Below, piece by piece: positions 25,341-42,531 of a stretch of DNA of 64,000 bases (position 1 is the first letter of the stretch; each line of letters opens with the position of its first letter). Made by a program: the position numbers and the translations under genes. This stretch comes from an uncultured delta proteobacterium. Lineage in GTDB: Bacteria > Desulfobacterota > Desulfobulbia > Desulfobulbales > Desulfocapsaceae. The stretch is taken from positions 1-64,000 of the forward strand of contig CAIQWD010000066.1 of assembly GCA_903875445.1 (NCBI GenBank). Direction: 5' to 3'. The notes beneath the pieces were generated by a model, which worked only from the letters and a program-made list of their open reading frames with translations, was not told the origin of the DNA and searched no databases.

Positions 25341-26168
25341 CTAATCGGCCAAAGCCATGGGAATATCGCCAAGGCCACGGTCGATATCGGTGGTAATGCC
25401 GGGAATGACCTTGCTGAATCCGTCTTTCTCGATAGTCAAGGTATAGGTCCGGTTGTCCTTCAGGCCTTTCAGCCAAAAGTCACCGAAATTATTGGTTTTA
25501 TCAGAAAAGATCTCTCCCGAATCGGAATCTTGCAAGGTGCAGCTGGCGCCGATGATGACTTCCTTCAGGGTCGGTTCGTACAGGGTTCCGGCCACAAACT
25601 TCTTCGGCAACCCCTGGTAATAGATGCGCGACTTGGTGCCGATCTCCGGTTTGAAGGGCTCCGCCTGGGCGATGAAATCGGCGAAGTCGGCTTCCTCCCC
25701 GAAACGCAGCGCTTCGGTGGGGCACTGGTCGACGCACCTGGGCACGGTCCACTCTTCCGGATCGCTGTCCAGCAGGTGGCTGCAACCGGTGCATTTCTGG
25801 GCGATGTTCAGTTGTTCGTTGAGGAAAATGGCATTATGCGGACAGGTATCGACACAGAGCTTGCAACCGCTGCACTTTTCCGGATCGATGATCACCAGGC
25901 CGTCGGCGCGCTTGTAGATGGCCTCGGCCTTACAGTCGGCGATACACGGGGCATCGTCGCAGTGATGACACATTTGCGGCACGTAACTTACCCTCACATG
26001 GGGTACATGACCGCGCACCTTCTCGGTCAGACCGAGCCAAAACTGGCCGGTGTCCGGCTGGGGTTTTGCATAGGGTGTCCAGTCGTTGCCGACATGTTCG
26101 TCCTTGCAGGCAATCTGGCAGCAGTAGCAGCCGTTGCAGACCGACAGATCTACGATAAATACCTTCAT
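25341..26168 (-). CDS. iron-sulfur beta subunit of a transhydroxylase-like molybdenum oxidoreductase
   Basis: A 275-residue protein. Residues 1-150 are a four-cluster ferredoxin of DmsB/PsrB type. Cysteine sets are at C11/14/17/21, C67/70/75/79, C99/102/105/109 and C126/129/145/149. Residues from about 195 form a beta-sandwich domain (LQDSDSGEIFSDKTNNFGDF...TYTLTIEKDGF) of the transthyretin-like type. This architecture and length equal those of the small subunit of pyrogallol-phloroglucinol transhydroxylase of Pelobacter acidigallici. That enzyme carries three clusters as I recall, whereas all four Cys sets are complete here. No signal peptide. The start codon overlaps the alpha-subunit stop (ATGA), preceded by GGAGG. 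Confidence 0.88.
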   Translation of the reverse strand: MKVFIVDLSVCNGCYCCQIACKDEHVGNDWTPYAKPQPDTGQFWLGLTEKVRGHVPHVRVSYVPQMCHHCDDAPCIADCKAEAIYKRADGLVIIDPEKCSGCKLCVDTCPHNAIFLNEQLNIAQKCTGCSHLLDSDPEEWTVPRCVDQCPTEALRFGEEADFADFIAQAEPFKPEIGTKSRIYYQGLPKKFVAGTLYEPTLKEVIIGASCTLQDSDSGEIFSDKTNNFGDFWLKGLKDNRTYTLTIEKDGFSKVIPGITTDIDRGLGDIPMALAD

Positions 26169-28780
26169 TTCTTACCTCCATCAACAATCCAGGCATCGAC
26201 CCGCAGGCCGGCCGCCGCATCATATTTTCTGGCAAACGCCTCGGGATTCTCGCGGCGCCATTTGTCCATCTCTTCGCCGGTCACTTTCTGTACCTCGACC
26301 AAGTAGCCGCCGCCGATCTGACCGACACAGTTCTCACTGGTGACGGCGCCGGGGGTGATGGTGTTGATTGCTCCGCCGCGCTCGATCTCTCCGGTTTTGA
26401 TAGGATCGTGCCGGGCGCCGTGATCGACATAGGCAACCCCCGGTCGCAATCTTTCGGTGAGATAGGCGCCGGCGAGGACGATACCGCGCTCATTGAACAC
26501 CTTGACGATATCGCCGTTTTCGATGCCCCTCTTTGCCGCCTCAAGGGGATGCAGCCAACACGGTTCGTACTTGTAACCGTCCGGACCGGTGACTTTCATG
26601 GTCGGGGTCTCGCGGGTCCAGGTGATATCGTCGCATTGGGCATGCACCCGCCAGCGTCCATGGTTGGACATGATCAGTAAGGGATAAAGTCTTGCCCTGG
26701 GACTCGACAACCGTTCATCGTGGTTGTGGCTCTTTTCCACCCATTTGGGAATCGGGCCTCTCTCCTTGTCGTCGGGATAGGCCTTGGCCAGCGCCTCGGA
26801 GTAGAATTCGAGTTTTCCGGTTGGGGTGTTGAGTTTAAATTTTTCCGGATCGAGATAGAACTGACGGAAGCCGGGAGGATCATTTTCCCAATCTTCAGCC
26901 GTATTATAGATCCAATAGCCTTTCTCTTTCAACTGCTCCCAGGAGACGAGCTTTTCGCCGCCCATGTAGCCCCAGATGGCTTTTTGCAGATCGGCAATCG
27001 TCTTGCCCTCGGTCATCTGCTGTTCCATGCCCGGGAATTTCTTGGCGACCTCAAGGACACATTCGGCATCGCTCTTCGATTCGCCGATCGGTTCGATGGC
27101 CTTCTCGGTAATCATGATATTCGGTTGCATGGTACCCTGGCGGATATTGGTGACGATATCGTCGACCTCCATGTGGGTATTGGCCGGGAGGACGATATCG
27201 GCATAGAGACAATCGTTTTCGAACCAGGGGTGTTGGGCGACTATAAACTCGATCTTCGGGCTTCTGAGGGCCACTTCCGTTTCGTGGCCGAAGTTCCAGC
27301 AGGTGATTCGGCACGGGCTGTCGGTCCAGATCATATGGATCTGCGAGCCTTTTTTCTCCGGTGCGATCGGGAAGGTGTATTCGCTGAATTGGTCGGCGGT
27401 CAGGGCATTCTGGGCGCCGGTGCCGCGAAACTTAATCGGTTCATCGGAGAGAATAGCGTTTTGAATGAGGGTCTTGGGAATAACCTGATCCTGCCAGGCG
27501 GCCACCGAGCTGTAAACAGGCAGGGCGAGGCGCTCTTCGATTTCCGGGTTCCAGAAGAAGGTGCCGCCAAGACCCTCGGCGCGGGGCAGACCGAAGTAGG
27601 TCCATTGGTGCTGATGCACCCCCGGGCCGCCCAAACCCTGCATGCCGAGGAGGATGCATTCGAGTCTCGCCGGTTCATGAGAGAAGGGGCCGCGGATGAA
27701 GCCGCCGCCGAAATAGTGGGCGATGGAGGTGGTTTTGGCGCCAAATTCGCGGGCCAGGGCCTTGATTGTCCAAACGGGAACGCCGCACTTCGCCGACGCC
27801 CATTCCGGAGTTTTCGGGATGCTGTCTTCTTTGCCCAAAACGTAATCGGCCACCTTATCCATGCCGACGGTATGGGTTCTCACGTATTCCTTGTCGTAGG
27901 TGCCCTCGGTCAGCCACATATAGATGATCGCCAGTTGCAGGGCGGCATCGGTATTGGGGAGAACCGGGATCCATTTATCGGCATGGATGGCCGCGCCGTA
28001 GTTACAATCCGGGCAGATATACACCTGCTGGATGCCGACTTCGGTGAGGTAATAACAGAGGCGGCTGGCGAACTGACCGACAAAACCCCAGGGCGTGGTC
28101 TCCGGGTCGCAGCCCCAGAACAGCACCATATCGGCGTGTTCGACCGTGTCCTTGACGATATTGGCGGCGGGATACATGATGCCCTGGGCACCCTGGCCCC
28201 AGACATGCTTGGCCCCCCAGTACCAGCCTTCCCAGCTGTCGGGGTTACGCACCTGGAGGGTGAAGCCGCCGAGGTATTCGAGAAGGACGCCGGGATGGCC
28301 GTGCGGGGTGTTGATGGTCTTACACTCGCCGTGGCCATCGCCCTGCATGAGGATGGCGTTATAGCCGTAGGTCGCATGCACCCTCTTTATCTCGGAGGCG
28401 ATGATGGTCGCCGCCTCGTCCCAGGAGATGCGGACGAATTTACTCTTGCCGCGATTTTCGGTGTTGCGTTCGCCGTTCGGATCCCAGTCCACCCGCTTCA
28501 TCGGAAAGGGGACGCGGTTTGGCGAATAGACCCGTTTTTTGTAGCCGAGAGAAAACGGTCCGGGCAGAGATTTCCAGGTGGGCTCAAGGATTTTGCCGTT
28601 CCTTTCCATCTTCCACTGGCGGACTTCCTCTTTTTTATATTTCCAGCCGTAGCGCAATGGCCGGACACGAACGATCTTGCCGTTCTTCACATCTACCATT
28701 CCTTCGGCACCACCGCCGAAGTAACCGCCGAGGCCGAGGGACCTCAAGACGGTTTTATCCTTTGTTTTAACCGGATTCAT
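26165..28780 (-). CDS. molybdopterin alpha subunit of a transhydroxylase-like oxidoreductase
   Basis: An 871-residue DMSO-reductase-family catalytic subunit. It lacks the N-terminal Cys motif for a [4Fe-4S] cluster and lacks a Tat signal, as does the pyrogallol-phloroglucinol transhydroxylase large subunit (875 residues). Shared blocks are FPMKRVDWDPNGERN, FVRISWDEAA and NPDSWEGWYWG. The Asp-Ser pair in the last block corresponds to the active-site Asp and Mo-ligand Ser of that enzyme. Further support is WGCDPETTPWG and HPLEAAKRGIENGDIVKVFN. The substrate is probably a phenolic or other hydroxylated compound, but other members of this family exist. The ATG at 28780 lies 10 nt after AAGGAG, and upstream in-frame ATG 28789 is too close to it. 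Confidence 0.85.
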   Translation of the reverse strand: MNPVKTKDKTVLRSLGLGGYFGGGAEGMVDVKNGKIVRVRPLRYGWKYKKEEVRQWKMERNGKILEPTWKSLPGPFSLGYKKRVYSPNRVPFPMKRVDWDPNGERNTENRGKSKFVRISWDEAATIIASEIKRVHATYGYNAILMQGDGHGECKTINTPHGHPGVLLEYLGGFTLQVRNPDSWEGWYWGAKHVWGQGAQGIMYPAANIVKDTVEHADMVLFWGCDPETTPWGFVGQFASRLCYYLTEVGIQQVYICPDCNYGAAIHADKWIPVLPNTDAALQLAIIYMWLTEGTYDKEYVRTHTVGMDKVADYVLGKEDSIPKTPEWASAKCGVPVWTIKALAREFGAKTTSIAHYFGGGFIRGPFSHEPARLECILLGMQGLGGPGVHQHQWTYFGLPRAEGLGGTFFWNPEIEERLALPVYSSVAAWQDQVIPKTLIQNAILSDEPIKFRGTGAQNALTADQFSEYTFPIAPEKKGSQIHMIWTDSPCRITCWNFGHETEVALRSPKIEFIVAQHPWFENDCLYADIVLPANTHMEVDDIVTNIRQGTMQPNIMITEKAIEPIGESKSDAECVLEVAKKFPGMEQQMTEGKTIADLQKAIWGYMGGEKLVSWEQLKEKGYWIYNTAEDWENDPPGFRQFYLDPEKFKLNTPTGKLEFYSEALAKAYPDDKERGPIPKWVEKSHNHDERLSSPRARLYPLLIMSNHGRWRVHAQCDDITWTRETPTMKVTGPDGYKYEPCWLHPLEAAKRGIENGDIVKVFNERGIVLAGAYLTERLRPGVAYVDHGARHDPIKTGEIERGGAINTITPGAVTSENCVGQIGGGYLVEVQKVTGEEMDKWRRENPEAFARKYDAAAGLRVDAWIVDGGKK

Positions 28781-28808
28781 CGGTATCATTCTCCTTTGAT
28801 TAAAGAAA

Positions 28809-29018
28809 CTATTTACCAAACGGACAAACCGGGAAGGCGCAGGTCGGACAATGCAGGCAGAGCCCTCCGTGGCCGAGAGCGGCCATTTCCTGGCGCGTAA
28901 ACTTCTCTCCGGTCAAAACCCTTGGGTAAATGAGATCAAGTACGGTACGGGCTGCGTACATGCCGCAGGCCGGTACACCGAGTACCGGAATATCTCCCAG
29001 ATAAGCAACCTGTTTCAT
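28809..29018 (-). CDS. small Cys-rich protein, resembling the C-terminal tail of molybdopterin-binding proteins
   Basis: A 69-residue protein. It starts with VAYLGDIPVLGVPACGMYAA and ends with GHGGLCLHC-PTC-AFPVC-PFGK. From memory, this matches the last part of deltaproteobacterial MoCF-type molybdopterin-binding proteins (about 340 residues). Here it stands alone with its own ribosome site (GGAGG, 7 nt before ATG), so it appears to be a genuine short gene rather than a truncation. The four clustered Cys could bind zinc or a cluster. It is first in the operon, 28 nt before the molybdenum alpha subunit, which suggests a role in cofactor insertion or enzyme maturation. Confidence 0.65.
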   Translation of the reverse strand: MKQVAYLGDIPVLGVPACGMYAARTVLDLIYPRVLTGEKFTRQEMAALGHGGLCLHCPTCAFPVCPFGK

Positions 29019-30928: not shown

Positions 30929-31810
30929 ATGGACGCCGCACAAGAAAGCAGTACTCCCGTCAGCAAAAGTTATACCCTTATCTCTGAAGTAGATCCTCCC
31001 AAGGGTGTCAATCTCGACGCTTTTCTCAATACGGCCCTGCAGGTTCGGGGGCGTGTCGATGGCGTTCGGGTAACCGATTGCGAACATGCGATCATGCGCA
31101 TGTCGCCGATTGCCCCCTGTTTGGCGCTCAAGGAAAAAGGTTTTGATCCGGAAATGATCATAACCGGTCGTGATCGTAACCGCATTTCCTTCCAGGCTGA
31201 TCTGCTCTCGGCCGCCGCCCTGGGGATTAAAAAAATTGTCATCAAGGAGGGACATGATCCGGCAGAGGGGGATCAACCGGTAGCCAGGACGAGCGGCGAC
31301 CTGGATCTCGAATCGATGCTGCAATGTGTCGCTGCACTCAACAGCGGCAAGGATCTGGCCGGCGAGTCCCTTGACGGGGCCACCGATTTTCATATAGGGG
31401 TGGGAATCGATCTCTCCGATGATGTGAATTTCAACCGGGAAAGGGCTGAGTTTCTCAAAAAGTTCCAAGTGTATGGCGTCAAGTCGGTTACCTTGGGTCC
31501 GACCTACGATGTGAATATTATCGAACAATTTCTCCCCTTTGCCGAGGAGACTGGAATTCAGCTCTTCACCTCGCTGATGTTTTTAAAATCCGTGACAATG
31601 GTACGCTACCTCAATAACCTGCCGGGAGTTCCGTCGATTCCCCATGAGTTTTTGAAAAAGATGATGCAGGCTCCGGTCAAAAAAGACGCCGGTATGCAGG
31701 TAGCTGCAGATCTCCTCAAGGAACTGGCCCCACTGGGAGATGGAGTTGTTTTACTTGCCATAGGCTGGAAGGATAGATTACCCGAATTTCTGGATCTTGT
31801 CGGTCGTTAG
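30929..31810 (+). CDS. metF: methylene-tetrahydrofolate reductase-like protein (first MetF copy)
   Basis: A 293-residue MetF-type TIM barrel. The N-terminal strand ISEVDPPKGVNLDAFL carries the Glu found in MetF active sites. MIITGRDRNRISFQADLLSAAALGI is the block that contacts the flavin and folate. Compared with the second copy at 39563 it is diverged (insert around VARTSGDLDLESMLQC) and slightly shorter, so it may act on a different C1-folate step or be a regulatory paralogue. Start: CAGGAGG before the ATG. It heads the metF-hdr-mvhD-metV-metF gene line, 9 nt before the kinase frame. Confidence 0.85.
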   Translation: MDAAQESSTPVSKSYTLISEVDPPKGVNLDAFLNTALQVRGRVDGVRVTDCEHAIMRMSPIAPCLALKEKGFDPEMIITGRDRNRISFQADLLSAAALGIKKIVIKEGHDPAEGDQPVARTSGDLDLESMLQCVAALNSGKDLAGESLDGATDFHIGVGIDLSDDVNFNRERAEFLKKFQVYGVKSVTLGPTYDVNIIEQFLPFAEETGIQLFTSLMFLKSVTMVRYLNNLPGVPSIPHEFLKKMMQAPVKKDAGMQVAADLLKELAPLGDGVVLLAIGWKDRLPEFLDLVGR

Positions 31811-31819
31811 CGAGCCGTT

Positions 31820-33363
31820 ATGACGGGTGCCGTTCATTCGACAATTAACAAGGATCCGGGATCCCTGGCTGAGTCCTTAGGTCCCTACCATTATCTCCAC
31901 ACCATTCTTCAAGAAACACCGAATGGGGTGGTGGTTGCAGGGCTTGACCATAGGGTTATTCATGCCAATCCGGCGACTGGTCGCTTTTGCGGGGTGCCGT
32001 ATGAAAATCTTGCCGGACGCACGGTGGAGCAATCCTTGGCGAGAAAAACAACACTCTTTTCAAGCTGATCGAGAAACAATTCCAGGAGGACAAGCAGGAA
32101 AACGGCTGGAAAGTAACCCAGGAAATCGATTTTTCTCGGCCCGGCCAGCGGTGCATCCTCTTTGGAGTGGCCGTTTATCCACCCGCATCCCCCGACTACT
32201 ACCTCCTCTACCTCATCGATATCACCCCGCGGAAAATACTTGAGGGTGAACTCAGACGGCGCAACGCCTTTTTCCATAACCTCATCGATAGTTCGGTGGA
32301 CGGAATTATCGCCTCGGATATGAAGGGGAAAATAGTCATTTTCAACACCGGGGCTCAGGCACTCCTCGGCTATGATGAAGAGGATACCAAGACCCTGCAT
32401 GTGACCCAGCTCTACAACGAGGGCGTCGCCTATGAGTTGATCAAACGGATGCGCTCCGATGATTTCGGTGGGAAAGGCAAGCTCTTGCGTCAACAGATGA
32501 TAGTCAAGCACAAAAACGGTAATGATATTCCGGTGAGCTTTTCCGGCGGCATCATCTATGACCATGATCTGGAGATCGCCACCTTCGGACTTTTCACCGA
32601 TCTGCGAGCCCTGCAGCAGATCGAGGAAAACCTCGAACAGACCCACAAAATGCTGATGCATTCGGAAAAGATGGCGGGTCTCGGCCGGCTCGCCGCGGGG
32701 GTGGCGCAGGAGATCAATAACCCGATGTCGGGAATTATGCTCTATGCCAATCTGGTGCAGGAAGAACTGGGCGATGAACATCCCTTGCGGCCGGACTTGC
32801 AGACCATCATCCATGAGGCGGAGCGATGCAAGGTGATTGTCGCCGACCTCTTGGAGTTCTCGCACCAGAATACCTATGAAATGGAACTGGTCGATCTCAA
32901 CGATGTCATTGTAAAGACCCTGACCATCCTGCAGCATCAGCCGCTTTTCCATAACATTACCATCATTCGCCAGTTGGATCCGGAGCTGCCGGCTATCTAC
33001 GGCAATGCAACCAGGCTTAACCAGGTGATTATGAACATTGTCGTCAATGCCGCCCAGGCGATGGACGGCAAAGGTCGGTTGCGGATTACCAGCAGGACCC
33101 GGTCCAATAAGGACATCAATGAAATCTCGATAGAAGATACCGGACCGGGCATTGAAGATGATCTGCTCGAGAAGATCTTCGAACCCTTCTTTACCACCAA
33201 GGAGACCGGTGAAGGCACCGGCCTCGGGCTGTCGGTTTCCTATGCGATTGTCAAGGAACACAAAGGGTCGATCAGGGTGACTTCCACCTCGAAAGCGGGA
33301 ACCACCTTTACCCTGAAATTTCCTGTTGTCATGGAAAATTTGATTGGAGAGAACGATGGATAA
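31820..33363 (+). pseudogene. PAS sensor histidine kinase, frameshifted and without the phospho-acceptor His
   Basis: The N-terminal PAS frame (31820-32068: LQETPNGVVVAGLDHRVIHA) ends at TGA 32066-32068. The -1 frame stays open through EKNNTLFKLIEKQFQ into the rest of the protein. The switch falls at the AGAAAAAC run (32042-32049), where one extra A would restore a single reading frame. Downstream are a second PAS domain (SSVDGIIASDMKGKIVIFN), a dimerisation box AAGVAQEINNPM and an intact HATPase (N box NQVIMNIVVNAAQAM, G boxes DTGPGI and GTGLGLS). The H-box codon at 32707-32709 is CAG (Gln) instead of His. Either a decayed kinase, a pseudokinase read by slippage, or a sequencing error at the A run. 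The 3' end overlaps hdrC by 8 nt. Confidence 0.8.
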
Positions 33364-33919
33364 AACCTGCATTTCACCCGATGACCGGAATGAAAAATTC
33401 CTCAGGAAACTGAAGGCCAGGAATATCGATGTGCAGGCCTGCTATCAGTGCGGCCGCTGTTCCTCGGGGTGTCCGATCGGCGATTTTTTTGACCTAAACG
33501 TCATGGAGGTTGTGCGCCTTGCCGGCTACGGCCAGGAAGAAAAACTCTTGCACAGCCATACCATCTGGCTGTGTGCGGCGTGCGAGACCTGCGCCACCCG
33601 GTGTCCGAACGAGATAGAGATCGCCGGTCTCATGGATGTGCTGCGGGAGCTTGCCCTGAGAAGGGGCATTGCCCCGGCCGAGCCGCGAATTCCCCTTTTC
33701 CATCAATCGTTTCTCGGGTCGATCCGCAGTCTGGGACGGGTCTGGGAAATCGGCATGATCGCCAACTATAAGATAAAGTCCGGTGACCTGACAGGCGACA
33801 TGAAACTCGGTCTCAGTATGTTTTTGAAGGGCAAGCTCAACCTCTTGCCCCATTCGATCAAAGGCAAGTCGGAAATCAAAGAATTTTTTTCCGGTAAGGG
33901 AAAGGAGTATGACCGATGA
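33356..33919 (+). CDS. hdrC: heterodisulfide reductase subunit HdrC-like iron-sulfur protein
   Basis: A 187-residue HdrC. It has two classic [4Fe-4S] motifs CxxCxxCxxxCP, at C29/32/35/39 (CYQCGRCSSGCP) and C73/76/79/83 (CAACETCATRCP). A helical tail follows. It wires HdrB to the flavin subunit HdrA. Start: GGAGAGAACG precedes the ATG at 33356, while a further upstream ATG at 33344 lies deeper inside the kinase gene. The stop overlaps the hdrB start (ATGA). Confidence 0.92.
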   Translation: MDKTCISPDDRNEKFLRKLKARNIDVQACYQCGRCSSGCPIGDFFDLNVMEVVRLAGYGQEEKLLHSHTIWLCAACETCATRCPNEIEIAGLMDVLRELALRRGIAPAEPRIPLFHQSFLGSIRSLGRVWEIGMIANYKIKSGDLTGDMKLGLSMFLKGKLNLLPHSIKGKSEIKEFFSGKGKEYDR

Positions 33920-34779
33920 AACTATCCTATTACCCTGGCTGTTCCCTCGAAGGAACGGCGCTTGATTATGACCAATCGGTACGGGCAGTCTGTCGGAAAC
34001 TGGAAATCGACCTGGTCGAAATTCCTGACTGGAACTGCTGCGGCGCATCCTCCGCCCATATGACCGACCACGAGACGGGGATGCGCTTACCGATACGTAA
34101 TCTTCTGCTGGCCAGCCAGGCGGGCCACGATATTCTCGTCCCCTGCGCTGCCTGCTTTCAACGGTTAAAGGCCGCGGACAAGGCCTTGCGGGCCGATCCC
34201 GGCTTCTGGGATGTCGGCGAATATACAGCCGACTTCGACATCCTGCATATCAGCTCCTTTCTCGCCCGACCGGAGATTCTTGCCGCCATGGAAGCGAAAG
34301 TCGCGAGAAACCTGGACGGCCTGCCGATCGCCTGTTACTACGGCTGTCTGTCGTTGCGCAATCCCCGCATCACCGATGCCGCTAATTGGGAGCGGCCGGA
34401 GACTCTCGAACGGATCATGACCGCGCTCGGTGCCAAGCCGGTAGCCTGGTCGCATCGCACCGAATGCTGCTCCGGCAGCCTCACCATGGCGCGTCCCGAT
34501 ATCGCCGAAAAACTGGTCGGCGATATCGTCGGTGCCGCTGTAAGAGGGGGCGCCACAGCAATGGTAACCGATTGTCCCATGTGCCAGGCCAACGTCGAAA
34601 GCCGACAGTCCGCCGAGCCGCACGCGCCGGCCATGCCGGTCTTTTTCGTCACCGAACTGCTCGATGCGGCGATGACCGGGTCCTATCCGGCGAAACAGCA
34701 GAAGGTACATCTTGTCTCTCCCGGGGTTCTTTCCAACATTTTCCTGGATGCAGGCATGAAAAAGGAGGGTTCGGTATGA
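33916..34779 (+). CDS. hdrB: heterodisulfide reductase subunit HdrB-like protein
   Basis: A 287-residue HdrB with two CCG domains. The first fits C-x31-CC-x34-CxxC exactly (C9, C41-C42, C77, C80). The second is C140/C144, C184-C185, C220 and C223. In its CC element CCG is replaced by CCS. In methanogen HdrB these cysteines hold two non-cubane [4Fe-4S] clusters that cleave the heterodisulfide. In MetFV-linked complexes the physiological disulfide or acceptor is not settled. It overlaps hdrC and hdrA by 4 nt each. Confidence 0.92.
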   Translation: MKLSYYPGCSLEGTALDYDQSVRAVCRKLEIDLVEIPDWNCCGASSAHMTDHETGMRLPIRNLLLASQAGHDILVPCAACFQRLKAADKALRADPGFWDVGEYTADFDILHISSFLARPEILAAMEAKVARNLDGLPIACYYGCLSLRNPRITDAANWERPETLERIMTALGAKPVAWSHRTECCSGSLTMARPDIAEKLVGDIVGAAVRGGATAMVTDCPMCQANVESRQSAEPHAPAMPVFFVTELLDAAMTGSYPAKQQKVHLVSPGVLSNIFLDAGMKKEGSV

Positions 34780-37700
34780 CAGGGATACTGCAAACTCAGT
34801 CAGGAAACGGCGAGCATCCGACCGCCGCCGTGCTGGTCATCGGCGGTGGTATCAGCGGCATGCAGTCGGCCCTTGATCTCGCCAATGCCGGGATGAAGGT
34901 CTATCTGGTGGAGAGTTCCCCGGCCATCGGCGGTAAGATGGCTCAGTTGGACAAGACCTTTCCCACCAACGACTGCTCCATGTGTATCGTATCGCCCAAG
35001 CTGGTCGAGGTGGGGCGGCACAGGAATATCAAGCTCTTTACCCACAGCGAGGTGAAGAGTCTTACGGGCGATGCCGGACGTTTCACGGCGACCCTGGTAA
35101 GGCATGCCCGCTATGTCGATGTCGGGGCCTGTACCGGCTGCGGTCTCTGCGAGATTGTCTGCCCGGTGACCCAGATTTCCCATTTCCCGGCGCCGCCGGC
35201 GGAAGGGGAGAAAAAGACCCGGGCGCGGGCCAAGGAAAAAAGAATCATCCGCGGCCCGGGATTGCCGCAACCGACACGCTCGCAAAAATGGAATTTTTCC
35301 GTCGATAACTCGCTTTGCGGTATGTGCGGCGGCTGTTTCAAGGCCTGTCTGCACGGTGCGGTCAGTTGGGAAAAGAAGCAGGTGGCGGTTATCGACCAGG
35401 AGAAATGCACCGGGTGCGGCGCCTGTTTCGTCGCCTGCCCGGAAAAATTTTCGGCCATCGCCATCGGCCAGGCCGCCGATCTTGAGAAGAGCGTAGGAGC
35501 TGCGGTCCATGCACGATCACAACTTTTGAAAAAGGAATTTAAGGGGACGGGCCAGCGTGACTGTATTCGCTGTGGCCTTTGTGTCATTACCTGTGACAAG
35601 GTTATGAATATAAGCGCCCTGAAAATGGTTGAAGAAGGTATTGAAGCAGGTGTCGATATCTGTCAGGTCTGCGGCGCCTGTGTGTCAGTATGTCCGGTGA
35701 ACTTTCTCGCCATCGACCAGGTCACCAACAAGGTTCCGCGGCCGCTGCTCAACAGCTTCAATGAAGGGTTGAACGGCAGAAAACCGGTGAACATCTTTTA
35801 TCCGCAGGCGGTACCCAGGGTTCCGGTAATAGATGAAGAGAGTTGTGTTCGCCTCAATTCCGGGGCCTGCGGTACCTGCGCCTCGATCTGCGGGGTGGGA
35901 GCAATCCACTATGACCACCGGGAAGAGGAAACCGAGATTGCCATCGGTTCGGTGATTTTCTCGCCGGGTATTGAGGTTTTTGATGCCCGGATACGCGGCG
36001 AATTCGGTTACGGGCTGTATAAAAATGTCGTTACCAGCATCGAATTTGAGCGACTTCTCTCCGCCTCCGGTCCGACTTCCGGGACGGTGGCGAGACCAGG
36101 TGACGCAAAACATCCGAAAAAAATCGCCTGGATTCAGTGTGTCGGTTCCCGCGACCATTCCTGCGACCGCGATTACTGCTCGTCGGTCTGCTGCATGTAT
36201 GCAACCAAAGAGGCCTTTATCGCCAGGGAACATGACTCAAGCATCGAGCCGACTATTTTTTATATCGACATGCGTTCCTTCGGCAAGAATTTCGACGACT
36301 ATGTGACCAGGGCCAAGGATCACAAGGTCCGCTTCGTCCGGGCCATGGTCAGCAGGATCTTCGAGGACCCGATAAGCGGTGACCTTGAACTGCGTTACGT
36401 CGATGGTTCCGGGGCAAGGAAAACCGAAATGTTCGATATGGTCGTCCTCTCGGTCGGCATCCAGGTGCCGAAGGCAAGCAAAGAACTGGCCGGAAAACTG
36501 GACATCGACCTCGACCGTTACGGCTTTGTCGTAACCGATTGCTACCGACCGCTGGCAACTTCCCGACCGGGGATCTTCGTCAGCGGTGCCGTCAAGGGAC
36601 CAAAAGACATCCCGGAGACGGTCTGCGAGGCCTCGGCCGCGGCCGAAGCCGCATCAGCGAGCCTCGCCGAGGCCAGGGGCAGTCTGATAACCGCCGAAGT
36701 GTTGCCGCCGGAGCGGGTTATCGATCCGGAGGAGGGCCTGCGCATCGGCGTCTTTATCTGCCACTGCGGTACCAACATCGCCTCGGTGGTCGATGTCGAG
36801 GCGGTGACGGAATACGCCAAAACCTTGCCCGGCGTGGTGTATGCCGAACATCCCCTTTATACCTGCTCCCAGGATTCCCAGGAGAGGATGCGGGAAATCA
36901 TCAAGGACAACCGGCTCAACCGGGTGGTTACCTCCGCCTGTTCGCCGACCACCCATGAGCCGCTGTTCATGTCAACCCTGCAGCAGGCCGGGCTGAACAA
37001 ATATTTCTTCGATATGGCCAACATCCGCGATCAGTGCAGCTGGGTGCATCCCGACGATCCGGTGCTGGCCACCGAGAAAGCGAAACGCTTGACCCGCATG
37101 GCTGTCGCCAATGCCACAGCCGGGCAACCACTGGCGGAGCAGGAGTTCACCGTCGATGCACGGCTTCTGGTGGTAGGCGGCGGGGTGGCCGGAATGACCG
37201 CCGCCCTTGAAGCCGCCCGCCAGGGTTTCGGCGTGTTCCTGGTGGAGAGGGAAGGGCAGTTGGGCGGTCAGCTTCTGCAGCTGCAGCGGAGTAGCGATGG
37301 CCGGAAGTTTGCCGATTTCCTCGGCGGCCTAAAAGAAAAGGTGCTGAACAACGAGCTTATCAAGGTTTTTACCAGCAGTGAGGTGGTCGAACAATCCGGC
37401 TTTGTCGGCTCTTTTGAAACGGAGATCGTCACACCCTCGGGAGGCACGAGAACCTTAAAACACGGGGCGATCCTCGTTGCCACCGGGGCGGAAGAGCACC
37501 GCCCGGAGATCCACGGTCTGGGGACGCTCAATACAGTCATGACCCAGACCGATTTCGAGGCGGCCCTTGAGAATGCTACAAGCAAGGATTGGCAACATCT
37601 TCGGGTGGTTATGCTGCAATGCGCCGGTTCCCGCGATGTGGATCATCTGCCGTACTGTTCGCGGGTCTGCTGCAACCATGCGGTGAAGAACGCCCGGCGG

Positions 37701-38408
37701 CTGAAGAGCATGCATCCGGAGGCGCGGATCGATGTCCTATACCGCGATATGCGCTGCTACGGCCTGGCAGAGCTTGACTACAGCCGGGCAAGACGGGAAG
37801 GAATAAATTTTGTTCGCTACGACCCGGAGGAAAATCCCCTGCAGATCACTGCCGAGGAGGCGGGGATTGAAATCACCGTCGTCGATCCTTCGGTGCGGCT
37901 GCCGGTACGCTTTCATCCGGATCTGCTGGTACTTTCGACCGGCATGAAACCGCGCGATGCCGAGGAACTGGCTTCCATGCTCCGGGTGCCGCGCAACAGC
38001 AACGGTTTCTTCATTGAGGCGCATGCCAAGTTGCGGCCGGTCGATCTGCCGAGCGAGGGACTGTTCATGGCCGGTACCGCCCATGGACCGAAAAGCAGTA
38101 CTGAAAGTATCACCCAGGCCCAGGCGGCGGTGGCCAGGGCGGCAACCCTCTTGTCGCGGGACAGCATGAAGATGTCGGCTATCGTTTCGGTGGTTGACCC
38201 GACCCATTGCGCCGTCTGCCTGACCTGCGTGCGGGCTTGCCCGTACGGAGTGCCGTTTATCAACGACCAGCACAGCGCCGAGATCAACCCGGCTCTTTGC
38301 CAGGGCTGCGGCATCTGTGTGGCCGAGTGCCCGGCCAAGACCATTCATCTTGGTCGGTATGGCGATAAAAATATCAGAGCAAAGATTGAAGCATACAGCG
38401 CGTCCTGA
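34776..38408 (+). CDS. hdrA: tandem HdrA: two flavin modules with multiple ferredoxin inserts
   Basis: A 1210-residue fusion. Module 1 has an FAD loop VLVIGGGISGMQSALDLANAG (about residues 19-39), then clusters at CTGCGLCEIVCP (C119), CGMCGGCFKAC (C181), CTGCGACFVACP (C211), CIRCGLCVITC (C263) and CQVCGACVSVCP (C296). A Cys-rich CGTCASIC (C365) and the HdrA motif CSSVCC (468-473) follow. Module 2 starts with RIGVFICHCGTNIASVVDVE (656), then the second FAD loop (798), YCSRVCC (960-966) and two C-terminal clusters from C1145 (CAVCLTCVRACP, CQGCGICVAECP). HdrA is the flavin-based bifurcating subunit. AAAGGAGGG precedes the ATG at 34776, and the 130 open codons upstream are a shadow of hdrB. Confidence 0.92.
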   Translation: MTGILQTQSGNGEHPTAAVLVIGGGISGMQSALDLANAGMKVYLVESSPAIGGKMAQLDKTFPTNDCSMCIVSPKLVEVGRHRNIKLFTHSEVKSLTGDAGRFTATLVRHARYVDVGACTGCGLCEIVCPVTQISHFPAPPAEGEKKTRARAKEKRIIRGPGLPQPTRSQKWNFSVDNSLCGMCGGCFKACLHGAVSWEKKQVAVIDQEKCTGCGACFVACPEKFSAIAIGQAADLEKSVGAAVHARSQLLKKEFKGTGQRDCIRCGLCVITCDKVMNISALKMVEEGIEAGVDICQVCGACVSVCPVNFLAIDQVTNKVPRPLLNSFNEGLNGRKPVNIFYPQAVPRVPVIDEESCVRLNSGACGTCASICGVGAIHYDHREEETEIAIGSVIFSPGIEVFDARIRGEFGYGLYKNVVTSIEFERLLSASGPTSGTVARPGDAKHPKKIAWIQCVGSRDHSCDRDYCSSVCCMYATKEAFIAREHDSSIEPTIFYIDMRSFGKNFDDYVTRAKDHKVRFVRAMVSRIFEDPISGDLELRYVDGSGARKTEMFDMVVLSVGIQVPKASKELAGKLDIDLDRYGFVVTDCYRPLATSRPGIFVSGAVKGPKDIPETVCEASAAAEAASASLAEARGSLITAEVLPPERVIDPEEGLRIGVFICHCGTNIASVVDVEAVTEYAKTLPGVVYAEHPLYTCSQDSQERMREIIKDNRLNRVVTSACSPTTHEPLFMSTLQQAGLNKYFFDMANIRDQCSWVHPDDPVLATEKAKRLTRMAVANATAGQPLAEQEFTVDARLLVVGGGVAGMTAALEAARQGFGVFLVEREGQLGGQLLQLQRSSDGRKFADFLGGLKEKVLNNELIKVFTSSEVVEQSGFVGSFETEIVTPSGGTRTLKHGAILVATGAEEHRPEIHGLGTLNTVMTQTDFEAALENATSKDWQHLRVVMLQCAGSRDVDHLPYCSRVCCNHAVKNARRLKSMHPEARIDVLYRDMRCYGLAELDYSRARREGINFVRYDPEENPLQITAEEAGIEITVVDPSVRLPVRFHPDLLVLSTGMKPRDAEELASMLRVPRNSNGFFIEAHAKLRPVDLPSEGLFMAGTAHGPKSSTESITQAQAAVARAATLLSRDSMKMSAIVSVVDPTHCAVCLTCVRACPYGVPFINDQHSAEINPALCQGCGICVAECPAKTIHLGRYGDKNIRAKIEAYSAS

Positions 38409-38445
38409 ATCGGACTGAAGAGCAACCTGCAGGAGGAGGAGAATA

Positions 38446-38901
38446 ATGAGTGACTTTTCGCCCAGTGTCATAGTCTTTGCCTGTCGCCATTGAGCGTATT
38501 CCGCAGCGGACCTGGCAGGTTCGGAGAGAAGAAGGTATCCCCCGGCAATCAGCATCGTCATGCTGCCTTGCACCGGGCGCATTGACGAGTCACTGCTTCT
38601 TACGGCCTTTGAAAATGGGGCGGATGGAGTAATGGTTGTTGGTTGTTTGGAAGGAGATTGTCATTACGTCTCGGGAAATATTCGTGCCAAGGCACGGGTC
38701 AAGAGGGTGTATGGGATTCTTGACAGGATAAAGATCGGTCCCGACCGCATCAGGATGTACAATCTGAGTGCCGGAGAAGGATCGAAATTTGCCGCATATG
38801 CCAACGAGTTCGTCGAAAAAGTCCGGGAACTCGGACCAAGTCCCATCAATCTGGTGCGTGCCGGACAAGCTCGCGCAGTATCTCAGAAGGAGGCTACATG
38901 A
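38446..38901 (+). CDS. mvhD: MvhD-type [2Fe-2S] electron-transfer subunit, selenoprotein (in-frame UGA = Sec16)
   Basis: A 151-residue MvhD when the TGA at 38491-38493 is read as selenocysteine: SPSVIVFACRHU-AYSAADLAG. The CxxU replaces the CxxC of the family. The rest follows the MvhD pattern: LPCTGRIDESLL and VVGCLEGDCHYVSGN. MvhD carries a [2Fe-2S] cluster and passes electrons to HdrA. The ATG at 38446 has an excellent AGGAGGAGG site 38 nt after hdrA. A conventional caller would start at the internal ATG 38560 and lose 38 residues, including the cluster ligands C13 and U16. The stop overlaps metV (ATGA). Confidence 0.9.
38491..38523 (+). promoter_or_regulatory. bacterial SECIS-like hairpin downstream of the UGA codon
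   Basis: After the UGA (38491-38493), CGGACCT (38507-38513) pairs with AGGTTCG (38517-38523) around a GGC apical loop. The loop is about 21 nt from the UGA and starts with G, as expected for SelB-recognised bacterial SECIS elements. Confidence 0.65.
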
Positions 38902-39563
38902 TTACTGGTACACCGAAACCTATTGAAGAGATCATGGAAATGGTCGAGCCATACGACAACATCATTCTGGCCGGTTGTCATGGTTGTGTCACTGTCTGCA
39001 GGGTCGGCGGGGAGAAGGAGGTACAGGTTCTGGCCTCAACCCTGCGACTCGCCCGTGAGGCGGGCGGCAGAACGATCAAGATCCGGGAAGTAAGCCTTGA
39101 GCGGCAGTGCGATCCTGAATATGTGGAGCAGATGCGGCCCTATGTCGGCGATTATCAGGCCGTGCTGTCCATTGCCTGCGGTGCAGGCATCCAGTTTCTC
39201 GCCGAAAAATTTACGACGACGCCCCTGCTTCCCGGTATCAACACCGGCTTTCTCGGGGTCACCGAGCGGCAAGGGGAGTGGTCCGAGAGGTGCCAGGGCT
39301 GCGGCGATTGCGTCCTGCACCTGACCGGCGGCATCTGCCCGGTTACCCGCTGCGCCAAATCACTCTTTCATGGACCCTGCGGCGGTTCGGTACAAGGGAT
39401 CTGCGAGGTGGATAAGTCTGTTAAATGCGGCTGGCAGCTCATTATCGATCGTTTGAAGGCCCTGAACCAGATGGAAAATTACACTAAATTCAAACCGTTC
39501 AAGGGTTGGTCGACGGCAAGAGACGGCGGACCGCGTCGCATTATCAGGGAGGACATGATATAA
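38898..39563 (+). CDS. metV: MetV, zinc/iron-sulfur partner of methylene-THF reductase
   Basis: A 221-residue MetV (MTHFR C-terminal-domain family). Cys sites in order are AGCHGCVTVCRVGG near residue 28, ACGAG mid-protein, and the C-terminal block CQGCGDCVLHLTGGICPVTRC followed by LFHGPCGGSVQGICEV. The last motif is diagnostic of MetV. MetV carries a [4Fe-4S] cluster and zinc and is needed for electron delivery to MetF in acetogens. It overlaps mvhD by 4 nt and metF2 by 1 nt (TAATG). Confidence 0.92.
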   Translation: MITGTPKPIEEIMEMVEPYDNIILAGCHGCVTVCRVGGEKEVQVLASTLRLAREAGGRTIKIREVSLERQCDPEYVEQMRPYVGDYQAVLSIACGAGIQFLAEKFTTTPLLPGINTGFLGVTERQGEWSERCQGCGDCVLHLTGGICPVTRCAKSLFHGPCGGSVQGICEVDKSVKCGWQLIIDRLKALNQMENYTKFKPFKGWSTARDGGPRRIIREDMI

Positions 39564-40489
39564 TGAAATCGGGAAGCAATCTGGAAAAGGTACTAGCGGC
39601 CGGGCATTTTTCCGTTACCGCCGAATGCGGCCCTCCTCGGGGTGCCGACCCGGATATTGTCAGGAAGAAGGCGGCATTCGTCAAAGGAAATGTCGATGCC
39701 TGCAACGTTACCGACAATCAGACCTCGGTGGTGCGGATGAGCTCTCTGGCCGGTTGTCTGCTGATCAAAGAGCTGGGGGTTGAACCGCTCATTCAGATGG
39801 TCGTTCGCGACCGGAACCGCATCGCTCTGCAGTCCGACCTGCTTGGTGCCTCGGCAATGGGGGTGCGCAATATTCTCTGTTTGTCCGGCGATCATCAAAA
39901 ATTCGGTGACGACCCCCAGGCAAAAAATGTTTTTGATATCGATTCGATGCAGTTTATCCATCTGGTCAGATTGATGCGCGATGAGGGCACCTTCCCCTCG
40001 GGGAAAAAACTCGAAGGAGCGCCGAAATTTTTCATCGGCTGTGCCGTCAATCCCTTTGCCGATCCGTTTGAGATCAGGGTGCCGCGATTGAAAATGAAGG
40101 TTACCGCCGGTGCCGATTTCGTGCAGACCCAGTGCATCTATAACATGAAAAAATTCAAAGAGTATATGGAGCTGGCGAAAAGAGAGGGTTTGCACGAAAA
40201 GGTCAAAATTCTCGCCGGAGTCACTCCCCTCAAGTCGGCCGGCATGGCAAAATTCATGCGCAAGATGGTCGCCGGCATGGATATCCCCGAGGAGGTGATT
40301 GCCCGTATCGCCGCCGAACCGAAGGATAAGCAGGCGGACAAGGGTATCGAGATGTGCATCGAACAGATTCAGGAACTGAAAGAAATGGAAGGAATCTCCG
40401 GGGTGCATGTGATGGCCATCGAGTGGGAAGAAAAATTGGCAGAAATCATAGGTGGTGCGGGCCTGCTCCCTCGACCTGTGGTAGAATAA
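39563..40489 (+). CDS. metF: 5,10-methylene-tetrahydrofolate reductase MetF (second copy)
   Basis: A 308-residue MetF TIM barrel. The N-terminal VTAECGPPRGADPDIVRKKA has the catalytic-type Glu, QMVVRDRNRIALQSDLLGA is the flavin/folate block, and TAGADFVQTQCIYNMKKF is the canonical MetF strand. It interconverts methylene- and methyl-tetrahydrofolate in the methyl branch of the Wood-Ljungdahl pathway. Its position directly after metV makes it the partner MetF of the complex. Start: GGGAGG 11 nt upstream of the ATG that overlaps the metV stop. Confidence 0.92.
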   Translation: MKSGSNLEKVLAAGHFSVTAECGPPRGADPDIVRKKAAFVKGNVDACNVTDNQTSVVRMSSLAGCLLIKELGVEPLIQMVVRDRNRIALQSDLLGASAMGVRNILCLSGDHQKFGDDPQAKNVFDIDSMQFIHLVRLMRDEGTFPSGKKLEGAPKFFIGCAVNPFADPFEIRVPRLKMKVTAGADFVQTQCIYNMKKFKEYMELAKREGLHEKVKILAGVTPLKSAGMAKFMRKMVAGMDIPEEVIARIAAEPKDKQADKGIEMCIEQIQELKEMEGISGVHVMAIEWEEKLAEIIGGAGLLPRPVVE

Positions 40490-40530: not shown

Positions 40531-40917
40531 ATGGCTGATAAAAAGAAAATTCTACTGGTAGATGATGACCCGGATTTTGTCGAGGCAGTGCGTGTTATTG
40601 TCGAGAGCGGCGGCTATGAGGTTCGCGTTGCCTACGACGGACAGGAAGGTCTTGAGGCGGTTGCCGAGGAAAAACCGGATCTTATTGTCCTCGACGTGAT
40701 GATGCCGGTAATGAACGGTCATGCTGCCTGTGCCCGTCTGAAAGCCGACAAGGCCACCGCATCAATCCCGATCATCCTGCTCACTGCCGTGGCCGATCGG
40801 GTCACCACCAGCACCTATACCCATCGGGATATGCTGGAAAGCGAGGCGGAGGACTATATGCCCAAACCGGTCGAACCGGCGGAACTGCTCGCGCTTATTA
40901 AAAGCTGGTTGAAATAA
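40531..40917 (+). CDS. single-domain response regulator (CheY-like)
   Basis: A 128-residue stand-alone receiver: acidic pair DDD at residues 11-13, phospho-acceptor D55 in LIVLDVMMPV, Thr in LLTAVADR and Lys in YMPKPVEP. No output domain. A GGAGGAGAG ribosome site lies before the ATG, 41 nt after metF2, so it is likely on the same transcript. Its kinase may be the hybrid protein encoded next, or originally the now broken kinase upstream of hdrC. Confidence 0.9.
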   Translation: MADKKKILLVDDDPDFVEAVRVIVESGGYEVRVAYDGQEGLEAVAEEKPDLIVLDVMMPVMNGHAACARLKADKATASIPIILLTAVADRVTTSTYTHRDMLESEAEDYMPKPVEPAELLALIKSWLK

Positions 40918-41019
40918 TGCGGTATCGCCTCTTGCCGGCACCGGGACCACCGGGGACGGTAAGAGGAGCGATCCTGCCCTGCATCCGTGTTTTGTCCTCC
41001 GGTTTCAAGGAATAATACT

Positions 41020-42531
41020 ATGGATACTGTGCGCATTCTGGTCATCGACGACGAAAAGGTCATTCGTGAAGGGGTGGAACGCGCCCTGGCCAAAAGAGGT
41101 TATGAAATTGCCAAGGCAGAGGACGGCAACAAGGGTCTGGAACTGCTCAAGGAGCAGAAATTCGATATCGTTCTGACCGATCTCATGATGCCGGGGCTTG
41201 ACGGTTTTGCCGTCCTTGACTGGATTCGGGAAAATCAGCCGCATGTCCAGGTAATCGTCATTACCGGTTTTGCCACAGTGACCAAGGCAGTGACCGCGAT
41301 GAAACAGGGGGCCTTCGACTTTGTCGGCAAACCGTTTACTCCCGACTATATCCGGGTGGTGGTCGACCGGGCCATCGACAGACTGGCCATGCGTGCCGAA
41401 ACGGAACGGCTGCGGGAAGAAAAAAACATGGGGCTTCTGGCCATCGATAAATCGCAGAGCCGCCTGAAAACCGTCTTCAGCTGTATGGCCGAGGCGGTTC
41501 TCATAACCGATACCGAAGGGATAGTCGTTCTCCATAACCCGGCGGCCATCAAGATCCTCGAGATTCAAACCGATCCGTTCATCGGCAAACACCTGGCCGC
41601 ATCGATTCGTGATCGGACGGCCATCAACATGATCAACGAAGCCATGAGCAAGGTCATGGTTGTGACCCGGGAGTTTGCGCCCGGCGCCATCTCCCGGAAA
41701 TTTCTTCGCGCCTACTGCTCACCGGTAACCAACGAACAGGGTGCGGTTATCGGTTCGGTTACTACCTTTGAAGACATCAGTGCCCACAAACAAATCGATA
41801 AGATGAAGTCCGATTTCGTCGCCATGGTCGCCCACGAACTAAAATCGCCCCTCGCCTCCGTCGAGCAAATGATTTACGCCTTGCAGGTTGGCTGCAAATA
41901 TGAGGCCACCAGTTCCTGCAATGCCCTGCACAAAAGGATGACGACACGGACCAAAGATCTGCTGCGACTGATTGAGAATCTCCTTAATCTGTCAAAACTG
42001 GAAAGCGGTACAGTGGTCTTCAACCTTGAACCGATACGCGGGGAAGATATTATCCGCGATGTCATCGAAATCACCAAACTGCAAGCGGAGAGTAAGGGTA
42101 TATCCCTGAGTTACACACCGTGCGGCGAAGATTGGCTGTTCAACGTCGATTACGATCATATGCGCACGGCGATCATGAATATCGTTTCCAACAGCGTTAA
42201 GTATACCCCGGATGGTGGTCAGGTGCTCCTCAGTACCGAGGTTACCGGTGGTTTTATCAATTTCAGGGTGCAGGATACCGGCATTGGTATCAGTAAAGAG
42301 GATCTCCCCCATATTTTTGACCGGTTTTTCCGGGTCAAAGGCAAGGCCACCCGCCATATTACCGGTTCAGGTCTGGGACTCGCTCTGGTCAAGGAAGTGG
42401 TTGAAGCCCATCAAGGCTACATCGATGTGCAGTCCACTCCGCAGGTGGGCACGACTTTTATCCTCAGTTTTCCTGTGGTTCAGAAAAATACTGCGACAAT
42501 TTCTCCCGAGCTGCAAGCGATTGCCCAATAG
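41020..42531 (+). CDS. receiver-PAS-histidine kinase hybrid
   Basis: A 503-residue soluble kinase. It has an N-terminal receiver (D10/D11, D54 in VLTDLMMPGLDG, K104 in GKPF), a PAS domain around residues 150-250 (CMAEAVLITDTEGIVVLHN) and a HisKA with intact phospho-His in FVAMVAHELKSPLASVEQ. The HATPase follows (N box MNIVSNSVKYTPDGG, DTGIGISKED, GSGLGLALVKEVV). Placing the receiver first suggests a phospho-input from another kinase. Start: AAGGAA precedes the ATG at 41020. It follows the CheY-like gene by about 100 nt. Confidence 0.9.
   Translation: MDTVRILVIDDEKVIREGVERALAKRGYEIAKAEDGNKGLELLKEQKFDIVLTDLMMPGLDGFAVLDWIRENQPHVQVIVITGFATVTKAVTAMKQGAFDFVGKPFTPDYIRVVVDRAIDRLAMRAETERLREEKNMGLLAIDKSQSRLKTVFSCMAEAVLITDTEGIVVLHNPAAIKILEIQTDPFIGKHLAASIRDRTAINMINEAMSKVMVVTREFAPGAISRKFLRAYCSPVTNEQGAVIGSVTTFEDISAHKQIDKMKSDFVAMVAHELKSPLASVEQMIYALQVGCKYEATSSCNALHKRMTTRTKDLLRLIENLLNLSKLESGTVVFNLEPIRGEDIIRDVIEITKLQAESKGISLSYTPCGEDWLFNVDYDHMRTAIMNIVSNSVKYTPDGGQVLLSTEVTGGFINFRVQDTGIGISKEDLPHIFDRFFRVKGKATRHITGSGLGLALVKEVVEAHQGYIDVQSTPQVGTTFILSFPVVQKNTATISPELQAIAQ

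Follow-up and report, generated by a model that had tools for sequence, protein, structure and literature searches.

Selenocysteine (Sec)-containing FrhD/MvhD/VhuD proteins, which carry a CxxU motif, are a listed selenoprotein family of methanogens, Asgard archaea and sulfate reducers (PMC13188914). Four Sec-containing MvhD copies (mvhD1, 2, 3 and 5) are predicted in Desulfobacterium autotrophicum HRM2 (PMC2702500), a Sec-encoding mvhD is predicted in Desulfococcus multivorans (PMC5109826), and the methyl-viologen-reducing hydrogenase is among the selenoproteins listed for marine deltaproteobacteria (PMC8318568). The statement of the initial annotation that such homologues exist in methanogens and some deltaproteobacteria agrees with published work (PMC13188914, PMC2702500, PMC5109826). 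A [2Fe-2S] cluster is present in MvhD/ElpC structures (PMC12350162), and in MvhD this cluster feeds the flavin of HdrA (PMC6019823; PMC12350162); we searched the literature for its ligand residues and did not find them. According to the available passages of one paper, an Hdr-type methylenetetrahydrofolate reductase (MTHFR) has been put forward for Moorella thermoacetica, and in Sporomusa ovata interactions among MetV, MetF, HdrA, HdrB and MvhD were demonstrated (PMC9430772).

The 64,000-nucleotide stretch of DNA analysed here (the window) carries the contiguous genes hdrC-hdrB-hdrA-mvhD-metV-metF, with mvhD between hdrA and metV-metF (Table 1). The available passages on the Moorella and Sporomusa enzymes describe the same grouping of hdrCBA, mvhD and metVF (PMC9430772; PMC5736913). 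They report no Sec in MvhD, whereas the Thermodesulfobacteriota counterpart has a predicted Sec at residue 16 (Sec16) in many cases, and Cys16 or Sec67 in others. With the known FrhD/MvhD/VhuD selenoproteins the mvhD product has in common the PF02662 family, a predicted Sec at CxxU and an adjacent hdrA. Unlike in those proteins, the partner is metVF, not a hydrogenase or formate dehydrogenase, and the putative SECIS element is of the bacterial type, lying within the reading frame. The product is not archaeal VhuD itself, because its score against NCBIfam NF045873 was 142 bits, under the cut-off of 215. We propose, with a probability of roughly 0.94, that 38446-38901 encodes a Sec-containing MvhD, the electron-transfer subunit of an Hdr-type MTHFR, in which SelB would insert Sec16 by means of a GGC-loop hairpin.

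Table 1. Features of the Hdr-type MTHFR operon and of its predicted recoding site (window coordinates).
Feature	Position	Strand	Description and basis
hdrC-like (Fer4)	33356..33919	+	Pfam; NCBIfam TIGR03290 74.8 bits, under its cut-off
hdrB-like (CCG domains)	33916..34779	+	domain matches
hdrA-like	34776..38408	+	1210 aa, two flavin modules and ferredoxin domains; NF040770 946 bits, cut-off of 1100 not reached
Shine-Dalgarno sequence AGGAGGAGGAG	38431..38441	+	sequence
mvhD, predicted Sec form (FlpD family)	38446..38901	+	151 aa, Sec16; sequence, PF02662 match, homologues
In-frame UGA, predicted to be read as Sec, second Cys of CxxC	38491..38493	+	TGA conserved in orthologues
Putative SECIS upper hairpin	38507..38523	+	stem 38507-38513/38517-38523, loop GGC 38514-38516; fold and frozen silent sites
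metV	38898..39563	+	MTHFR C-terminal family, PF12225 match
metF	39563..40489	+	PF02219 match

The mvhD frame begins with ATG at 38446, holds a single internal TGA as codon 16 and is 151 residues long; its own stop, TGA at 38899-38901, overlaps the ATG of the next gene at 38898 (ATGA). The ribosome site AGGAGGAGGAG, the ATG and the one TGA described in the initial annotation are exact to the base. The read-through product begins MSDFSPSVIVFACRHUAYSAADLAG..., with U16 within the motif CRHU, and it does continue as an MvhD past the UGA: PF02662 (FlpD) matched it end to end (profile positions 1-123 of 123) with 157 bits, the cut-off being 22.3. The UGA indeed lies inside the CxxC motif, but it takes the place of the second Cys, the fourth residue of the motif, and not the second position as had been written. 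Alignments of MvhD show a conserved set of Cys at 13, 16, 42, 67 and 72, one of which would be replaced by Sec here. When the protein was aligned with Cys-containing MvhD proteins, the UGA matched a conserved Cys; this includes the solved MvhD-type structures, which align over residues 1-135 and have Cys at position 16. Because the first in-frame ATG past the UGA is at 38560 and opens a frame of 113 aa, an ordinary gene caller loses 38 residues, exactly the loss that had been foreseen.

We looked for the genes of Sec synthesis and insertion by a family search of the source genome, a draft of 4.9 Mb in 117 contigs that is 95% complete. All of selA, selB, selC and selD were present: selA scored 628 bits, selB 350 bits and the tRNA-Sec gene selC 72 bits, with the anticodon TCA (UCA) called by ARAGORN. 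There are two selD genes, L018 (G000 C113:107288) and L019 (C28:125645), each with one in-frame TGA; that of the one inspected is near the N-terminus, as is usual for selD. Seven FlpD copies were found in the genome, three of them with one TGA. Of the 77 TGA-containing frames listed for the window, the ten judged likeliest were scanned with Pfam for a second selenoprotein; among these ten none was found, and no domain spanned a TGA.

The homologue set drew on 93 genomes of the family, 80 loci from named genomes, type strains among them, and 395 phylum genomes. In all close orthologues that were read out, whose identity ranges from 94% to about 50%, TGA stands precisely at codon 16 and residue 67 is Cys; they come from Desulfocapsaceae, Desulfobulbaceae, Syntrophobacteraceae, Desulfobaccaceae and Syntrophorhabdaceae. 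Conservation at the protein level was seen on both sides of the TGA, in the upstream codons, the CxxU motif and the downstream region. The sampling by protein score is biased to close relatives; a search by DNA pattern, which detects this SECIS type only, offsets part of that bias. The pattern TGA...GCGGACCTGGCAGGT was found in 100 of the 395 phylum genomes and in 65 of 246 genera, whereas the same pattern with TGC or TGT in place of TGA occurred in none of the 395, and a backward-read control also gave zero.

In bacteria, a SECIS element is a SelB-binding hairpin directly after the UGA, as in E. coli fdhF. A 7-bp hairpin with a GGC loop had been reported about 21 nt after the mvhD UGA, and the predicted fold recovered it, with seven pairs including one G-U and a loop that begins 21 nt past the UGA. 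The folding energy, however, was ordinary (the minimum free energy of 50 nt had z = 0.15, and z against synonymous shuffles averages about 0), and Rfam gave no match at the hairpin. Since the energy is ordinary the hairpin alone proves nothing, and it is the conservation of silent sites that gives support. Part of the family and named-genome loci share genomes, and the silent-site statistics therefore use distinct sequences, 87 of the Sec16 form. The hairpin is encoded by the codons GCG GAC CTG GCA GGT TC. Codon entropy was 0 at D22 (GAC), L23 (CTG) and A24 (GCA), while A21 was GCG in 82 and G25 was GGT in 85 of the 87; at the neighbouring codons A17, Y18, A20, R28 and P32 nearly all synonyms are used. 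Codons 21-26 have the six lowest entropies of the whole protein, the next degenerate column having a relative entropy of 0.63, and all of the frozen third positions fall within the stem or loop. The sequence GACCTGGCAGGT was present in 94 of 96 Sec16 sequences, compared with none of 17 metV-linked Cys16 sequences and none of 53 Cys16 sequences overall; Cys16 homologues use mixed codons for the same amino acids. Conservation of the UGA and of the hairpin's silent sites thus goes far beyond chance. The element resembles other bacterial SECIS elements in being a short in-frame hairpin with its apical loop about 20 nt past the UGA and G at the first loop positions. It differs from them in GGACCUGGCAGGU, which is characteristic of this subfamily and occurs only once after a UGA at this spacing in the genome; the sole TGA at the pattern spacing ahead of GGACCTGGCAGGT is the one at 38491.

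A single stop inside a frame would normally point to a sequencing or assembly error, or to a gene that has recently become a pseudogene, and the genome is a draft of many contigs. Yet the same TGA is present in all orthologues found in the genus and family and in the 80 loci of the independently assembled named genomes, and the protein stays conserved past it. Because the TGA is conserved, an error or pseudogene is already refuted, and we give this explanation a practically negligible probability; since every homologue found in the genus and family carries TGA there, a TGC or TGT on resequencing is effectively excluded. The comparative evidence indicates that the mvhD hairpin is a SECIS element under selection and not the product of either.

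Translation might instead stop at the UGA and restart at the ATG of the 113-aa frame. The resulting short MvhD would lack the N-terminal strand and CxxC and might serve as a regulatory switch. Although that ATG-started frame exists, no Shine-Dalgarno sequence precedes it, protein-level conservation covers both the codons before the UGA and the CxxU motif, and the solved structures that were aligned keep the CxxC; such a restart is very improbable. It is similarly hard to believe that the UGA is read through as Trp, Cys or Gly, by a near-cognate or reassigned tRNA. Nothing specific speaks for this reading, whereas the genome holds a full Sec system, mvhD itself ends with a UGA stop, and homologues have Cys at the aligned residue. 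A UGA accompanied by a frozen hairpin that is absent where a Cys codon stands is, moreover, what marks recoding that depends on SelB. The claim that Sec is inserted here, which for the cell we infer, is therefore supported by the sel genes, by the alignment of UGA with Cys and by the selected hairpin.

The operon context was strongly conserved. Of the 127 Sec16 loci whose downstream flank reaches 400 nt or more, 126 have metV immediately downstream. Twenty further sites were fetched by the DNA pattern alone; all 20 were MvhD, and metV and metF follow in 19, the remaining one ending at a contig edge. Because of its context of hdrA and metV-metF, the Sec16 protein is identified as the predicted MvhD subunit of the Hdr-type MTHFR. 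CODH/ACS is also present in the source genome. Sec-containing MvhD with CxxU is already known; its association with the metVF operon is strong and little noted, and we found no paper that ties the two together in a search that reached little of the subscription literature. Around the operon, a second, divergent MTHFR-family protein (30929-31810), with less than about 30% identity to MetF homologues, is encoded upstream in the same gene group, a histidine kinase (32167-33363) directly precedes hdrC, and a response regulator and second kinase (40531-42531) lie 3' of metF. The first kinase and the response regulator are kept with the operon in relatives of the family, which suggests that these neighbours may regulate it. 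Farther upstream, on the minus strand, 26165-28879 encodes a molybdopterin enzyme akin to DMSO/TMAO reductases.

The link from metV to Sec16 is not strict, for metV-linked MvhD also occurs as Cys16/Cys67 and as Cys16/Sec67. The initial annotation mentioned neither the Hdr-type MTHFR operon nor its variants with Cys16 or with Sec at another Cys. The source genome has three separate hdrA-mvhD-metV-metF clusters, one of each kind: Cys16/Cys67 (L206, on contig C18), Sec16/Cys67 (L026, the locus on C66) and Cys16/Sec67 (L207, on C5). Other FlpD paralogues in the family have Cys16 and a TGA at codon 67; L022 and similar loci carry this predicted Sec67 in GUHLGECHY, with a hairpin of their own whose loop, UGGAU or similar, lies about 23 nt after the UGA. 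Two Cys16 paralogue pairs, L169/L172 and L170/L171, fall within the Sec16 clade in a tree of 135 columns with forks partly open. L169, L170 and L171 have no metV context, and L172 has no flank to judge. Hairpins are altered in both pairs; most stem codons are retained in L169 and L172 but the first loop G is lost (CTG to CTC), so that these are apparently decaying SECIS elements. The nested paralogues would fit a course of duplication, Sec-to-Cys change and SECIS decay.

In the mechanism that we propose, SelB and Sec-tRNA(Sec) would recognise the GGC-loop hairpin just past the UGA, and residue 16, where the CxxC motif has its second Cys, would become Sec. MvhD would then carry electrons with one [2Fe-2S] cluster, as in the described MvhD structures, inside a physical complex, the Hdr-type MTHFR, formed from the products of hdrC-hdrB-hdrA-mvhD-metV-metF. 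Selenium may speed up electron transfer or lower its potential, perhaps by acting as a ligand of the cluster. A wider idea is offered tentatively and with considerable doubt: that in much of the Thermodesulfobacteriota the Hdr-type MTHFR is a selenoenzyme with a selenolate-ligated [2Fe-2S] cluster in MvhD, and that within this one subunit of one operon type the selenium has moved in evolution between two conserved Cys positions, 16 and 67.

In many sulfate reducers automatic annotation cuts off the end of MvhD that bears the cluster motif; the form with UGA and hairpin is present in roughly one in four of the Thermodesulfobacteriota genomes sampled. The conserved link between Sec-containing MvhD and metVF predicts a selenium-dependent one-carbon metabolism in these organisms. 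The operon occurs naturally in Sec16, Sec67 and Cys versions, all three found in the source genome, and these offer ready comparisons for the role of selenium in a putatively electron-bifurcating complex.
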